Part shown: positions 8,279 to 50,536 of the stretch, one piece after another
How the letters are laid out: every line of letters begins with the position of its first letter
How positions within the stretch are numbered: position 1 is the stretch's first letter
DNA from: Candidatus Nitrosotalea sp. TS
GTDB taxonomy: Archaea; Thermoproteota; Nitrososphaeria; Nitrososphaerales; Nitrosopumilaceae
Direction: 5' to 3'
Assembly: GCF_011319465.1 (NCBI RefSeq)
Contig: NZ_RCMB01000002.1
Location: 1-64,000 of the forward strand
Length of the DNA stretch: 64,000 nt
Notes under the pieces: generated by a model
Seen by the model: only the letters and a program-made list of their open reading frames with translations
What the model was told of the DNA's origin: nothing
Database searches by the model: none
Made by a program: the position numbers and the translations under genes

Positions 8279-10083
8279 TTGAGTAAGACAAGCCTTTCTC
8301 AGTCTAGGCCTGATAACCTTCCAAAACCCAAAATACAATGGGGGCGTCTAGAGGAAGCTGAAAAATTTGCAGAGATGGTAAAACTCTTCAGACAAGGCAA
8401 GATTAGCCGTGATGATCTACGACGATTTAGACTCCAGCATGGAGCATATGGTAGCAGAATGACTGATGACTATAGTATGATTCGTGTTAAAATCCCTGCT
8501 GGCGAAGTTTATCCAGAACAAATTGAAAAAATGGCTGAACTAAGTGAATCGTTTTCAATTGGAAGTGCACATGTTTCCACAAGACAAAATTTCCAGCTTC
8601 ATTGGGTTGCACTGGAAGATGTCTCCGAAGTTATGCGTGGGCTGGCAGAAATTGGATTGACATCAAGAGAAGCATGCGGCAATTCTGTAAGAAATGTAAT
8701 GTGTAGCCCTCTTGCAGGTGTATGTCCTAATGAAATATTTGATCCAACTCCATATGCATTATCAACAGCAAAGTTTCTACTGCGAAATTCTATGAATCAA
8801 TCCCTTCCAAGAAAGTTCAAGATCAACTATACATGTTGTGAAAAACATGGAATGGCAAGAATAGTAGACGTTGGTCTTATACCGCAAAGAACAGAAATTA
8901 ACGGAAAATTACAGAATGGATTCAAGGTTTTCTTAGGAGGCGGACTTGGTGCCCAGTCATTTGTAGGGCATCAGCTTGAGGAATTTACTCCAGAAGAAGA
9001 TTTACTCTATACCATAATCGCAGTCATTCGGGTCTATGATAGAATGGGCAACCGAGAAAATATGGCAAGAAACAGGATGAGATATCTTGTTAATGAACTT
9101 GGATGGGAAAAATTCCAAAATATTATACTAAAAGAAAGAACAATGGTAAGACTGACACAGTCTGTTGTGGTAAAACTTGATCTTGACAAGACTCCTGAAG
9201 TATTGCGCAAAATCTCCATCAGCTCAGAAATTCCATCTCTCCACAGGGATTGTCTAGATGGATCAAAACCAACACAATGAAGCAAAAACAACAAGGTTAC
9301 AGTGCGGCGTTCATCACGCTAGAATCAGGTGACATTACAGCAAGTCAACTACGTGCTGTTGCTGACATGGCTAGAGAATTTTCTGCAGAGGGACGAATTA
9401 GAACTGGATTTGTTCAAGATATAGTGTTTAGATGGGTAAAAGATGAAGATCTTGCAAAACTTTATGCCAAATTGCTAGAGGTCGGTCTTGCAAATTCTGG
9501 AGCGTTGACTATGGCCTCAGTTGTTGGATGTTCTGGTACTACCTCATGTAATCTCGCATTGACTAATTCTCATAGACTTGCAAAAGAAGTTCAAAGAAAA
9601 TTTCTTGAACTAAAACTTGATGAAGACGATGACTTGAGAGATTCTACAATTAAGATAAGCGGATGTCCAAATTCGTGTGGCCAACATGAAATAGCAACAA
9701 TTGGATTTTATGGCGGAGGTGGAAGGCTTGGAAAGGATATGTACCCACTGTATACCATGTCGTTGGGTGGAAGGGCAGATGGAAATTCAATGCTAGGGCT
9801 GATTACAACCAAGGTTCCTACAAAGAGAGTCATTCCAACAATTTTAAAAATAATTGAGATCTTCAAATCTGAAAAAAGATCCGGTGAAGTTCTGGATTCT
9901 TGGATTAATAGAGTCATTGAAGGTAGCGGCGGGCCTAAGATTAAATCAATTAATGATATCAAGGAATTGTTGAAACCTGTTGTAGCCCCCCCTACAATCG
10001 AGCAAGACCCTGACTTTTACGTCGATTATGGAAACGATGGAATCTATCATGCAAAAACTGGAAGGGGCGAATGTGCCGCTTGA
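8279..10083 (+). CDS. Sirohaem [4Fe-4S] nitrite/sulfite reductase (frame broken once)
   Basis: The protein has two repeats of the nitrite/sulfite reductase half-domain. The first (8279 to about 9235) has HVSTRQNFQLHW and GNSVRNVMCSPLAG. The second, in another frame to 10083, has the cluster ligands in GCSGTTSC and GCPNSCGQHE. A missing base near 9230-9245 separates them; the corrected product is about 601 residues. The family reduces nitrite to ammonia or sulfite to sulfide with ferredoxin. The neighbours (TusA-like, cysteine synthase, rhodanese) favour sulfite, but ammonia oxidisers have been annotated with nirA-like genes, so the substrate is open. The start is TTG at 8279, with a TATA-like tttatatg near 8250. 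Confidence 0.85.
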
Positions 10084-10886: not shown

Positions 10887-12029
10887 TTAGGTATTTTGCG
10901 TAGTTTCGCTTCTTAGCTTCTTTGTGGTCTGACTTTCAATGTGATCAAAAAGATCTATCATTTTCTGTTTATTTGCTTGCAAGTATTCGTAACCTTTGTC
11001 AGTTAATCTAATTTTGAATAATCTGATATCTCTATGTTCTTCAAAAAAATGTTCTATCATTTGTGCGCCTCTTTTGCTAGGATCTATGAATACATCCATC
11101 TTTGCAATGACTTCCTCGACATCTCCTTTCTCTATTGCAGTCTTGACAGCGTGAACTGCCTCGCTAATTTCTTTTAGGTGTTGAATTAGCAATGGATTGA
11201 TTTTTTTTGTTGTTCCAAAGAGACCTTTCTTTTCAACCCCTATCTTTGCAGCCAACTCGGGGGCAATCTCAAACTCTTCTACCTTTGACAGGCCAACGTT
11301 TCTTTCCTCTTTTATCAGTAGGCCTTTTTCCACTAATTTTCTTGCTGCATCTTCCACCTCTGTCTTGCCTAACATGGTTGTCCAAACTATCTGGCCAACT
11401 TTGTGATATCCCTGTCTTACTGATTCTAACACTACGACTTCAACAATTCTTCTATATCCGTCATCTGCTCTGACGTTTTCAAAATCTTTGTCTCTTACTG
11501 CTTTTTTTGCATTTTTGACATCTATCTCAATTGAACGCTTCAAAGCCTCAATGGCTTCAGGAATGTGATTTAAAAGAGAATAGTAACATCCTTTGTTATA
11601 CCAAGACATACCATCTGTAGGGTTTGTATCAATTGATTTTTCTACACATTCAAGGGCTTTTTCGTAGTTTTTTTGTCTATAATAGATGAGACCTTTCAGG
11701 TTCCAAGCATCCGAGTTTGTAACATCGATCTCGTGAACTTTGTTGTAATCATCCATGGATCCTGCCAAGTCGCCCATGTGGAATCTCGCATACCCTAATT
11801 TCAGAAGAGAATCGACATGTCCTGGGTCAACTTGTAATGCCCCTTCAAAGGCTCGTACTGCATCGTCCATCTTTTCATCTGCCATCAAAGAAACTCCTTT
11901 TTTGTACAGTTTATCTCTAGTATAGTTAGGATCTGTTATCTTTGATTCCTTGGATCTCTCTACTGACATTTCAGGTTTTATCTTAGTGCTTTCAGGCGAC
12001 TCTGAATTGCCCTTGAATAATTTTTTCAC
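10887..12029 (-). CDS. TPR-repeat protein with winged-helix-like C-terminus
   Basis: The 380-residue protein begins with a charged leader, then has at least three clear tetratricopeptide repeats (residues about 40-160; for example DAVRAFEGALQVDPGHVDSL and DAWNLKGLIYYRQKNYEKAL). The middle (about 190-270) reads like a winged-helix segment, with AARKLVEKGLLIKEERNVG. The tail also resembles such a module, with FKIRLTDKGYEYLQANKQK. TPRs bind proteins, so it may be a scaffold or regulator, but I cannot assign a partner. There is no signal peptide or membrane segment. It is divergent from the collagen-like gene and converges on the rhodanese gene with a 4-bp gap. Confidence 0.72.
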   Translation of the reverse strand: MKKLFKGNSESPESTKIKPEMSVERSKESKITDPNYTRDKLYKKGVSLMADEKMDDAVRAFEGALQVDPGHVDSLLKLGYARFHMGDLAGSMDDYNKVHEIDVTNSDAWNLKGLIYYRQKNYEKALECVEKSIDTNPTDGMSWYNKGCYYSLLNHIPEAIEALKRSIEIDVKNAKKAVRDKDFENVRADDGYRRIVEVVVLESVRQGYHKVGQIVWTTMLGKTEVEDAARKLVEKGLLIKEERNVGLSKVEEFEIAPELAAKIGVEKKGLFGTTKKINPLLIQHLKEISEAVHAVKTAIEKGDVEEVIAKMDVFIDPSKRGAQMIEHFFEEHRDIRLFKIRLTDKGYEYLQANKQKMIDLFDHIESQTTKKLRSETTQNT

Positions 12030-12156
12030 GACTGGTCAAATATGGATTTTCCGTAGATAAATACTATTCCGGGTGTCTAAAAAGTAAATTTTATTGGCAA
12101 AGCAGCTTTATAACGCTTGGATAAATACAAAAATACTCAGGTATTACACCTAGGAT

Positions 12157-13571
12157 ATGTCAGCCAGAGAAAGGATAATCGAAATAACTGGCGAATCGCC
12201 ATTTAGGCTCCCGTCGGGCATCTTTGAGGTGCAAATTTCTATTTGTGATTATCCTCCTTCTCAAGAAGACATAAAACGAAGGAATTTTCCGGTTATCTGG
12301 AAAGATAATTTCCACCTAAGGGTAAAAGATGCAAAATTCACTCAGACTCTAGGTTCTCCAAAAAACCCCTATTCCTGATTTTGTCTTTACGCGAGATTCA
12401 ATCTGGGTCGTAATTCTTGATCAGTTTTCATCAATTAATTCTGCATTTCAAGTCGCGGTACCAAAGATTCCAGGCGAAGTTCCCACCACCACAAATCCAA
12501 TCCAAGAGGAATCATCACCGAAGAGTTCCAAACCTTCTCCAGAATATTATCCTACGCCAGGCACTCAGGGCCCACGCGGCCCTGTGGGTCAACCTGGAGT
12601 TCAAGGTCCACCTGGACAGCCAGGTATTCAAGGTTCGCCTGGACCGCAAGGAATTCCAGGTCCTCAAGGTGACAAGGGTTCGTCCTGGACCTCAAGGTCC
12701 TCCGGGAGACAAAGGACCTCAAGGTCCTCCGGGAGACAAAGGCGATAAGGGTGACAAAGGTCCCACTGGCGATAAAGGCATAACGGGAGATAAAGGCCCA
12801 TCTGGCGATAAAGGTCCAAGAGGAGACAAGGGAGAAATTGGCGACAAAGGCGATAAGGGAGACAAAGGAGACAAGGGCGAAAAAGGTCTTACGGGAGAAT
12901 CAGGTCCTGCTGGCGATAAGGGTACGACAGGTCCTCCGGGCCCATCTGGCGATAAAGGTATTCTCGGTCCTCCGGGAGACAAAGGGCTCAAAGGTCCCTC
13001 AGGTCCACTTGGCGATAAAGGTCCAGTAGGTCCACAAGGTCCACTTGGCGATAAAGGTCTTACCGGTCCCCAAGGTCCACTTGGCGATAAAGGCCCACAA
13101 GGCCCGCAAGGTCCTCCTGGAGAAAAAGGTCTTACAGGTATTCCAGGTCCTCAGGGTGAAAAAGGACCTAGAGGTTTACCGGGTTCTCCTGGCGAACAAG
13201 GCCCAAGGGGTCCACCAGGCCCACAAGGCCCACCAGGTCCTCAAGGAATTCAAGGCCCTCAAGGCGATAAGGGACCATTAGGTCCACAAGGTCAATCTGG
13301 CGATAAAGGTCCTCAAGGAGTTCAAGGTCCTCAAGGCGATAAAGGCGTTACAGGTCCTCCTGGCATGGCTGGCGATAAAGGTCCTCAAGGACCACAAGGT
13401 ACGATGGGAGATGTAGGTCCTCGTGGCCCACCTGGTCCTCCAGGCCCGCCTGGTCAGCCAGGATTTTCAGATCAACAAAAGCAAATAATCACTCAACTTC
13501 TTGAAATACTAGCTTCTAAGAATCTGATCACAACAGAGCAACAAATCAAATTGCTGAGCTTTCTCTACTAG
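12157..13571 (+). CDS. Collagen-like Gly-X-Y repeat protein (frame broken twice)
   Basis: An N-terminal domain of about 120 residues ([44 protein letters not shown]) is followed by a Pro/Ser-rich linker and about 100 uninterrupted Gly-X-Y triplets (12560 to about 13462). A 35-residue amphipathic tail ([14 protein letters not shown]) follows. GDK triplets are very common and place Lys and Asp where KGD pairs stabilise a triple helix without hydroxyproline. Extra bases in the CCCC near 12367 and at gttcg near 12678 break the frame; corrected length is about 470 residues. I see no signal peptide. A structural or surface role is inferred from the repeat only. Confidence 0.85.
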
Positions 13572-13731: not shown

Positions 13732-13887
13732 TTATCTTCTGCGTTTCTTTGCAGATTTTCTTTTAGCTGTTCTTTTAGCTTTTTTACCCGCTGTTCTTTT
13801 AGCTGCTGATCTTCTCTTAGGAGCTGATTTTCTTTTTGGAGCTGATCTTCTTTTGGCAGCTTTTTTAGCGCGTTTTTTCATTGCCAT
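13732..13887 (-). CDS. Tiny Lys/Arg/Ala-rich histone-H1-like protein
   Basis: This 51-residue protein is almost only Lys, Arg, Ala, Ser, Pro and Thr. It has a repeated pattern of the type KRRSAPKRKSAPKRRSAAKR and ends in SAKKRRR. There are no acidic residues and only a single aromatic-free, disordered stretch, so it resembles the C-terminal tail of eukaryotic histone H1 or bacterial Hc-type nucleoid proteins. DNA or RNA binding is inferred from composition. The start is ATG at 13887, with an internal ATG two codons on. Codon choice (AAA, AGA, GCT) matches the neighbours. Its short length means automatic annotation could miss it. Confidence 0.7.
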   Translation of the reverse strand: MAMKKRAKKAAKRRSAPKRKSAPKRRSAAKRTAGKKAKRTAKRKSAKKRRR

Positions 13888-14000
13888 TGACAAGTTTTAC
13901 ATTTAACTTGTTTTTCTATCGTTAGACTTAAGAAAATTACACCAAATGATGATATTCTATAAACAAATTTTTCATAAAATTCTAAAATTTTGATCGCATT

Positions 14001-23118: not shown

Positions 23119-23595
23119 TTACTTTTTTATCGTTTTTGCAGATTCCCAGTATTTGTCTGAGATGTAATGTAAATTCTTGACTACTTCTCCTTTTGTAATG
23201 TTGGCCATCTCCTCGCTTGATATGAGGGATTTTCCTATTGCAAGAAACTTGTTGTGCGTTTCCTCTGCAACGCATATGATTTGATCCTTTTCAAAATTGT
23301 CATATTTTTTGATTCCTGGACGCATGATGTTTGCTCCATTGCATACAAACTTTATCGCTCCTGCATCCACTAGAATTTTTGGAAACTTTTCAAGCAATGA
23401 AGTCTCGGAAAGAAATGGAAGATAAGTTTCACCGCTTTTAATTGCCATGAAACCCTCTCCTGTGATCATGGCTGTTTCATCATCAATTTCGTACTTGACC
23501 AATGTCTTTAGTCTTGGTACATCTATTTTCCACTGCAATGCAATGGATTCTAGGATGTCATTGCTGTCGCTTTTAGATAATGGGTGAGATTTCAA
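23119..23595 (-). CDS. PUA-domain RNA-binding protein (MCT-1/Tma20-like)
   Basis: The 158-residue protein begins LKSHPLSKSDSNDILESI and ends in a PUA domain (residues about 75-150) with AGAIKFVCNGANIMRPGI and AVGKS-like AIGKSLISSEEM. N-terminal DILES plus C-terminal PUA matches the archaeal MCT-1-like proteins, whose eukaryotic relatives act in translation re-initiation. The start is the TTG at 23595, which overlaps the homoserine dehydrogenase stop as TTGA. A longer frame back to 23742 exists but reads against the dehydrogenase and is not protein-like. Translation is probably coupled to the upstream gene. Confidence 0.78.
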   Translation of the reverse strand: MKSHPLSKSDSNDILESIALQWKIDVPRLKTLVKYEIDDETAMITGEGFMAIKSGETYLPFLSETSLLEKFPKILVDAGAIKFVCNGANIMRPGIKKYDNFEKDQIICVAEETHNKFLAIGKSLISSEEMANITKGEVVKNLHYISDKYWESAKTIKK

Positions 23596-24611
23596 TCTCT
23601 GGACATTTCCTGTTTGATATCTAACAAGTCGCGTAATATGGAACTTGCAGTCTCCATGCCGCCTGCACCACGTCCAATTATTGTCTGCTGACCGGAATGT
23701 TCTGAATTGAAGGTGATTGCATTCAATGTCCCGTTGACACAAAGTGGATCATCTTCAAGTATCTCTCTTGGAGCTACCTCCAAGTCTTTGTTACACGATG
23801 CAATTAATTTGACTGCGGAACGATTAGTCGCCGCTCTCTTAATGTCAGAAGTTGATACGTTTCTAATGCCTGTTCGCTTGATGTCTTTGATGGTTACCTT
23901 CATGTCCATTATCCAGTTTGCAAGTATTACAAGCTTAGCCGCTGCATCAAAACCGTCAATATCCAACGATTCGTCAGCTTCGACATATCCTTTCTTCTTT
24001 GCATCTGCAAGTGCCGTCTTAAACGTCATGCCGCCTGCCATGTTTGTAAGTATGTAATTTGTTGTACCGTTTAGAATTCCTTGGAAGGAAACTATTCTTT
24101 CTCCTCTGAGGCTATTTTTTGCATAATCTAGGATTGGAGTGCCACCGCCAACAGTTCCGCTAAATCTTAATTGTACCTGATTGTATGTGGCCAACTCTAT
24201 CAATGATGGAAATGCAAGAGCCAGCGGACCCTTGTTTACTGTAATGACATGAAGACCCTTTTTCATTGCAGTCACTATGTGTGACATCCCAGGCTCGGCA
24301 TCCTTGTAGTTGCTTGGTGTGGTCTCAATTAACACTTCAGCTTCCATGCCGTTTATCATGTCTAGTCCATTTGCTTCTTTTTCCTTGTTGTGATACTTTC
24401 GTATGTTTCCATATTTTTTCTTGACTTCGAGCAACCTATTCAGATCAATACCTGCTGAAGAAGCAGCAGAACCTTTACTGTCGAACACACCGACGATTCT
24501 AGGTTTGACTCCGTGTTTTGCATAAAGATCTTCAGACCTTGAAAGGAGAAGCTTTGCAAAACTTTGCCCTACTACACCAAAGCCACACAATATTATGCGC
24601 AACATCCACAA
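23592..24611 (-). CDS. hom: Homoserine dehydrogenase
   Basis: The enzyme reduces aspartate semialdehyde to homoserine for threonine and methionine synthesis. The NAD(P) loop is ILCGFGVVGQ near residue 9, the catalytic region is ESLDIDGFDAAAKLVILAN, with the Lys in NKGPLA near the nucleotide and NGTTNYIL in the middle. The length of 337-339 residues is right for the monofunctional form without an ACT domain. The start is ATG 24611 or, giving the common LRIILCGFG start, ATG 24605. The gene is intact and coupled by a TTGA overlap to the PUA-protein gene. Confidence 0.88.
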   Translation of the reverse strand: MWMLRIILCGFGVVGQSFAKLLLSRSEDLYAKHGVKPRIVGVFDSKGSAASSAGIDLNRLLEVKKKYGNIRKYHNKEKEANGLDMINGMEAEVLIETTPSNYKDAEPGMSHIVTAMKKGLHVITVNKGPLALAFPSLIELATYNQVQLRFSGTVGGGTPILDYAKNSLRGERIVSFQGILNGTTNYILTNMAGGMTFKTALADAKKKGYVEADESLDIDGFDAAAKLVILANWIMDMKVTIKDIKRTGIRNVSTSDIKRAATNRSAVKLIASCNKDLEVAPREILEDDPLCVNGTLNAITFNSEHSGQQTIIGRGAGGMETASSILRDLLDIKQEMSRD

Positions 24612-48888: not shown

Positions 48889-50536
48889 ATGAAAAAGGCA
48901 ATCATAACAAGTGCATTACCATATGCTAATGGTGAGATACATCTTGGCCATGTTGCCTCAACTTATTTGCCTGCTGACATAACAACAAGATTTCTCAAGC
49001 TTACAGGTACTGAAGCATATTACATATGTGCATCAGATGACTATGGAACGCCAATTCTAATTCAAGCTGAAAAAGAAAAAAAGACGCCAGAAGAATATGT
49101 CAAAGTCTGGAACAAAAGAGATTATGATGATTTCACAGCATTTGGGATAGGATTTGATCTGTTCTACAGAACAAGTTCTCCAGAAAATATTGCCTTTGTA
49201 CAGGAGACATTTAAAAAATTAATGGAAAATGGTCACATTTACGAACAAGAAATAATTCAATTCTACTGTAAGGTTGACAAAAAATTCTTGCCAGACAGAT
49301 ACGTGATAGGCAGATGTCCATATTGCAAGGCAGAAGAACAATATTCAGACTTGTGTGAAAAATGCGGCAGAGTGCCACAAGAGATTGAAGAGCCAAAATG
49401 TTCGCTTTGCAAGAATCCACCAACAAAAGAAAAGACCAAGCACTACTTTTTCAAACTGACAAACTTTGTAAAAGAACTAAATGAATGGCTTGCAGGGGAC
49501 TCTCATCTACAAAAGGACGTGAAAAAATACGTACAAAATTGGATAAAAGATGGCCTGGTAGATTGGGATATCACAAGGGACATTACTTGGGGAGTGCCTA
49601 TTCCACTTGAAGAGGCCAAGGGCCAAGTCTTCTATGGCTGGTTTGATAACCATCTTGCATACATCTCTTCAGCGCTAAAGTTTCTAGATAACAAGGGTAT
49701 CAGATGGCAAAGAATTCTGGAATTCTGCTGACATTTACCACTTTATTGGTAAAGATATCGTATACCATCATTATCTGTTTTTGCCTGCAATGAGAATTGG
49801 AATAAAAAAAGAGTACAAACTTCCTGACTATATCCCAACCAGGGGGCATCTCATGCTACAATCAAAAAAGATCTCAAAGAGCCGTAATTGGTATATTGGC
49901 CTAAGGGATTTTCTTCAAATCTATCCGTCTGATTATTTGAGATTCTATTTGACGTTGATTACGCCATATAGTCAAGATGATCTTAATTTTGATTGGGACG
50001 AGTTTGCAGCCAGGATCAACTCTGAACTAATAGGAAACCTTGGCAACTTTGTCAATCGAGCACTTGGTTTTACAAAAAAGAGTACGGGTGGTGTAATTCC
50101 TTCAACTGGTGATCTTGATTCTGTTGATAATGAAGCACAAGACAAGATCAAAAATTTCGTAAAAGAACTGACGCCGCTAATGGAAGAAAATAATCTTGAC
50201 AGGGCATTAAAGAAGATCTTGGAGTTTTCTGCATACTTTAACCAATATTTTCAGAAAAAAGAACCGTGGAAGGGTGGTGCAGGTACAAACAACTGCATAT
50301 TCATTTCGGTGCACGCGGTGCGCTCTATTGCAATAGCACTTTATCCGTTTTTGCCAGAATCATCACAGAGAATATGGTCACAACTTAACTTGGCAGGAAA
50401 TGTATCTGAACAATCCTGGCACTCCATGTCTGAAATTGCAATAAAATCAGGTCATAATCTGGGCGAGGCTACTCCACTTTTCAAGAAAGTAGAGTCGGCA
50501 GATATTGAGACACACAAATCAAAACTTGGACAGTAA
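48889..50536 (+). CDS. metG: Methionine--tRNA ligase (frame broken once)
   Basis: The synthetase reads ITSALPYANGEIHLGHVAST (HIGH variant HLGH), a double zinc knuckle CPYC, CEKC and CSLCKNPP, and the catalytic VPIPLEEAKGQVFYGWFDN. The break is near 49700, where one extra base explains it; corrected, it reads DNKGIDGKEFWNSADIYHF. The rest, in the next frame, has LMLQSKKISKSRNWYI (KMSKS variant) and a helical anticodon domain. The corrected protein is about 549 residues, with no C-terminal tRNA-binding OB domain. The ATG at 48889 follows the ahcY stop by 30 bp. Confidence 0.9.

Follow-up and report, generated by a model that had tools for sequence, protein, structure and literature searches.

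The collagen-like gene at positions 12157–13571 (forward strand) of a 64,000 bp segment of the Candidatus Nitrosotalea sp. TS genome (contig NZ_RCMB01000002.1; hereafter the window) raises two questions: whether a gene that is spread over three successive reading frames is functional, and what a collagen does in the Nitrosopumilaceae. Few cells in the ocean outnumber these ammonia-oxidising archaea, which are also common in soils; to our knowledge, little is understood of what shapes their cells.

The first ~70 residues are read in frame from the ATG, the second frame (from ~12365) encodes the remainder of the N-terminal domain, the linker and the first 13 Gly-X-Y triplets, and the third (from ~12680 to the stop at 13571) encodes 87 triplets and the tail (Table 1). 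Together with one triplet that is broken across the second frame change, these give 101 triplets, and the arrays of the closest relatives are also of 101 triplets. The main open reading frame matches Pfam Collagen (PF01391) with an E-value of 1.6e-44 (149.9 bits, cut-off 27.2), and this match and the triplet count bear out the initial annotation of an archaeal collagen-like protein with about 100 uninterrupted triplets; the Pro/Ser linker described there is likewise present in the translation, and its length and sequence vary among relatives. The X position is mostly Pro, Asp or Glu, the Y position is mostly Lys, Gln or Pro, ~23 of the triplets are GDK, and the net charge of the rod is near zero. 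The last triplet of the array, GFS, is also the first of the tail. Upstream, the TTTATA core of the putative promoter element is without variation in nine aligned regions of the genus.

Table 1. Features of the collagen-like gene and its divergent neighbour, in window coordinates.
Feature	Position	Strand	Basis
TPR protein, divergent neighbour	10887..12029	-	Pfam TPR families, synteny, occurrence in other families
TATA-like promoter element TTTATAAC of the collagen-like gene (putative)	12107..12114	+	Role inferred from location ~45 bases before the ATG
N-terminal domain, ~104 residues, predicted beta-sandwich	12157..12469	+	Alignment of 30 relatives, AlphaFold2, upstream stop
First frame break, in an A6C4 tract	12361..12375	+	Open frame in the closest relative
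Linker rich in Pro/Ser/Glu	12470..12559	+	Translation
101 uninterrupted Gly-X-Y triplets, one across the second frame break	12560..13469	+	Pfam Collagen, counts, periodicity
Second frame break, within a Gly-X-Y triplet	12678..12686	+	Open frame in the closest relative
C-terminal tail, 36 residues, predicted helix-turn-helix hairpin	13461..13568	+	Profile match, AlphaFold2 on relatives

The two frame breaks would be expected if the gene were dead, and we compared the region with relatives. The closest relative (G017) has a single open frame of 471 codons at the same place, and in an 11 kb pairwise alignment one-base differences break the collagen frame twice, but also break the sulfite/nitrite reductase gene and the DedA-like gene near its end. 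Both breaks are most likely assembly errors, because dozens of relatives, Nitrosotalea devanaterra and Nitrosotenuis chungbukensis among them, have a single intact reading frame and neighbouring genes are similarly broken. The source assembly (1.54 Mb) is 71% complete, and genes for sulfite/nitrite reductase, methionyl-tRNA synthetase and homoserine dehydrogenase are seemingly split by frame changes within the window (at 8279–10083, 48889–50536 and 23119–24611, respectively), so the assembly appears to contain many indel errors. The substitution pattern gives a second line of evidence. Between the third-frame part and the closest relative there are 100 differences at third positions and only 13 at first or second positions, and all 87 glycines are kept (87/87) although 36 of the glycine codons differ, which excludes a chance repeat. 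Codon comparison thus indicates strong purifying selection on the array, and with substitutions nearly all silent and the gene intact in relatives, we regard a dead gene as hardly credible.

The gene is not a peculiarity of one strain. When 300 genomes sampled across the phylum were searched with a profile of the N-terminal domain, 43 of the 44 Nitrosopumilaceae had exactly one copy and none of the 256 others had any; the window's own domain, which the frame break divides, was counted as two pieces (matches of 2.8e-28 and 1.3e-10, one in each frame). All 22 Nitrosopumilaceae genera in the relatives sample carry it (22/22), and the 78 named loci include members from Nitrosotalea, Nitrosopumilus, Nitrosarchaeum, Nitrosotenuis, Nitrosopelagicus and Cenarchaeum. 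Matches to the tail are distributed likewise, with one per genome and a single marginal extra. Genomes of the genus that lack a domain match are mostly incomplete, and in one of them a contig end cuts the gene; a collagen match is absent from one 99%-complete genome (G379). Complete arrays (79 distinct) have 68–185 triplets with a median of 103, and none is interrupted. The longest is in an uncultured Cenarchaeum (L074/L167; OY282369.1), with 185 triplets and a linker built from AAPQPAPPP repeats. Such proteins had initially been thought rare in archaea; this one is near-universal and single-copy in the Nitrosopumilaceae.

We found no paper that describes this family. A 2015 count placed only 14 archaeal sequences within the Pfam collagen family (PMC4565658), and archaea go unmentioned in a review of prokaryotic collagen-like proteins (PMC8968730). 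The collagen-like kind is already known, and the signal-less, lineage-wide form with terminal domains of its own is new and apparently undescribed. A conserved collagen that is present in one copy, lacks a signal and carries head and tail domains of its own would give the archaea a collagen family at the core of an entire lineage.

Both terminal domains proposed in the initial annotation, a globular head and an amphipathic helical tail, are supported by AlphaFold2, with all predictions made for monomers. The head is predicted to be a beta-sandwich of six strands and two short helices (pLDDT 93.3), and the tail, modelled on relatives, to be a pair of helices with a short turn between them (pLDDT 94.9). 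The window's tail matches the family tail profile at 8.3e-20, and tail length is near-constant across the family. Neither domain belongs to a Pfam family, and fold searches with the head against the PDB and viral structures gave nothing at an E-value of 0.001 or better. By eye the tail resembles a SHOCT-like C-terminal domain, a candidate that we rejected as four tails had no Pfam SHOCT match at E-values up to 10. The consensus of a bacterial module (LWSET...VLGS.NPLP), a possible homologue of the head, had no match in plasmids or viral contigs. Thirteen residues of the head are invariant across 30 diverse sequences. This conservation, together with the flexible linker and the variable rod length, could be accounted for by a soluble multivalent binder resembling a C1q bouquet, in which the rod spaces three ligand-capturing heads in the cytoplasm or under stress; we think this unlikely, since the charge pattern described below suggests that the rod does more than spacing.

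In most of the family the gene order is sulfite/nitrite reductase, rhodanese, TPR (divergent), collagen, zinc ribbon, DRG-like GTPase, phosphatase and ArgS, and the window's collagen gene sits at this conserved place between the TPR and DRG-like GTPase genes. Phage tail fibres often contain collagen repeats, and a domesticated viral tail fibre is therefore an explanation to weigh; it is very improbable, as the neighbours are conserved housekeeping genes with no viral genes among them, and the head has no relative among viral contigs and no convincing PHROG match. The initial annotation left open whether the neighbouring TPR and H1-like genes are linked to the collagen. The adjacency of the TPR gene is conserved, since in nearly every relative it lies right beside the collagen gene in divergent orientation, but a functional tie is unsupported and probably does not exist: full-length TPR orthologues are present in three other families of the order where the collagen head was not found, so the TPR gene is the older and the collagen gene a newcomer. 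A link to the short, Lys/Ala-rich H1-like protein (13732–13893, reverse strand) is also unsupported, with a gene at that place in only part of the genus.

The rod has a regular charge pattern. Triplets whose X residue is acidic and whose Y residue is basic repeat with a period of four triplets (12 residues), with pooled z-scores for 45 representatives of 34.5, 27.4 and 21.4 at lags of 4, 8 and 12 triplets, values that overstate significance because they assume independent arrays while the sequences are related. Taken singly, 95% of 88 arrays have a lag-4 z-score above 2, and that for the window's genome is 6.1. Across the family, identity at silent third bases of glycine codons at lag 4 is near baseline (0.454 vs 0.433 expected), whereas identity of the X and Y residues is much higher (0.306 vs ~0.18). 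What preserves the pattern is therefore mainly selection at the level of the protein and not recent duplication. The window's genome differs from the family as a whole in having a silent-site identity of 0.46 at lag 4 against ~0.31, a residual repeat signal that tandem-repeat finding also picks up. It had been suggested that KGD neighbours stabilise the helix in place of hydroxyproline, and the counts do not agree with this: KGD/KGE neighbours are not enriched in the window (8 observed vs 9.7 expected) and are at or under chance in every array tested, and the acid-base pairs instead fall within triplets (25 observed vs 10.1 expected). A prolyl hydroxylase of the PF13640 type is absent from the source genome (which is incomplete) and from 39 of 40 relatives.

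An in-frame stop lies two codons upstream of the ATG and leaves no space for a signal peptide, and neither a signal peptide nor a transmembrane segment was found in 115 members, in agreement with the absence of a signal peptide noted at the outset. The highest 17-residue mean hydropathy near the start of any of these is 1.5 and is partly in the untranslated leader, compared to 2.7 for a collagen of Nitrosotenuis chungbukensis that does bear a signal; in 55 of the 115, an in-frame stop leaves 12 or fewer residues ahead of the conserved motif. A C-terminal LPXTG was found in none of 120 members (0/120), and of eight other archaeal collagens inspected, seven have a signal peptide or membrane anchor at their start, that of the eighth being ambiguous. 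With every tested export or anchor signal missing, the protein most likely acts inside the cell, and its sequence features suggest that it is probably cytoplasmic. A cytoplasmic location would contradict the view of collagens as proteins that work outside cells.

The alternative is a surface protein that is exported without a signal peptide and forms fibres or an adhesin layer with the S-layer. The surface is the usual place of prokaryotic collagen-like proteins (PMC8968730), and the best PDB fold match of the head, although not significant (E 0.069), is to the ligand-binding region of SgrA, an enterococcal adhesin. A 2026 study of N. chungbukensis MY2 reports that LPXTG-anchored collagen-like adhesins are expressed in dilute medium, that one is also in the proteome, and that a collagen-like protein annotated as LPXTG-anchored rose alongside surface proteins under these conditions (PMC13037477). 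The MY2 protein in that study may be the core-family member, which matches the same adhesin label on its collagen part, below the cut-off. However, besides its core-family gene (L168, contig NZ_AVSQ01000015), MY2 has another collagen, which bears a signal and is split at contig ends, and this one could instead be the protein reported. The LPXTG label derives from NCBIfam models that both MY2 collagens match below cut-off and on the repeats, and a database description as an LPXTG-anchored adhesin is ill-suited to the core family. The missing signal peptide, transmembrane segment and LPXTG, and the presence of one conserved copy even in streamlined genomes, unlike patchy and fast-changing adhesins, further argue against a surface role, which we consider possible but less probable than not. 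The second MY2 collagen (L195 and L196) has a signal peptide, an Ala/Lys-rich TolA-like region and collagen repeats, with repeated VANGGSNNVSILLGTG-type units at the other contig end, and is probably one large surface protein divided by a contig gap.

Our preferred reading, to which we give a probability of roughly one half, is that a homotrimeric collagen-like rod is a core structural protein of the Nitrosopumilaceae, most likely acting as a rod-like scaffold or spacer inside the cell. The C-terminal hairpin would set three chains in register and these would wind into a triple helix, with a length computed from the triplet number of ~87 nm in the window's species and ~58–159 nm across the family (at 0.286 nm per residue). 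Three heads with the predicted beta-sandwich fold would be shown on flexible linkers, and the net-neutral rods could pack side by side in ~3.4 nm steps through the acid-base triplets that recur every 12 residues. A more specific version, that the charge period lets rods bundle as a cytoskeletal element with a part in setting cell width or rod shape, is a speculative one that we think improbable; we note that the gene is found only in Nitrosopumilaceae among the 300 genomes of the phylum, and that these are rods while Nitrososphaeraceae are cocci, as given in the MY2 study (PMC13037477).

The closest known parallels share the rod and depart elsewhere. Like the core family, the streptococcal collagen-like proteins Scl1 and Scl2 (NCBIfam NF038330 and NF038329) have an N-terminal globular domain and a long, uninterrupted Gly-X-Y rod with many charged triplets and no hydroxyproline, but their signal peptide and LPXTG wall anchor are missing from the core family, which adds the C-terminal helical hairpin and scores under the cut-offs of these models; NF038329 scores are 188.4 bits for the window's reading frame and 186.6 for the MY2 member, against a cut-off of 325. 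The Bacillus BclA-type exosporium collagens are made without a classical signal peptide and are similar in this respect, but by description, not sequence, the core family is set apart by the absence of a spore and by other terminal domains. Legionella Lcl (NCBIfam NF046116) has a collagen rod of comparable composition, but it is extracellular (PMC11162425) and the core family matches its model on the repeats only, below the cut-off.

Other archaeal collagens of the same order or family (L209, L210, L211, L213, L214, L218, L220 and L196 of MY2) also have Gly-X-Y repeats, but they differ in having a signal peptide or transmembrane anchor, mostly other triplet types, a patchy occurrence, and partner domains such as a multihaem cytochrome or a protease. 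A genome of the window's own genus (G028; 84% complete), in which a core-family copy was not found, encodes a second collagen (L212) of the GPAGATG type with more than 690 residues and a different N-terminal part. In G095, a single protein (L214) joins a membrane anchor and a short stretch of collagen to a protease that is trypsin-like and DegP-like. Six proteins in G063 and G089 (L211, L213, L215, L216, L219 and L220) have a collagen stalk that links a membrane anchor at the N terminus to a multihaem cytochrome with 2–7 CxxCH motifs, an arrangement that suggests cytochromes carried outside the cell on collagen stalks.
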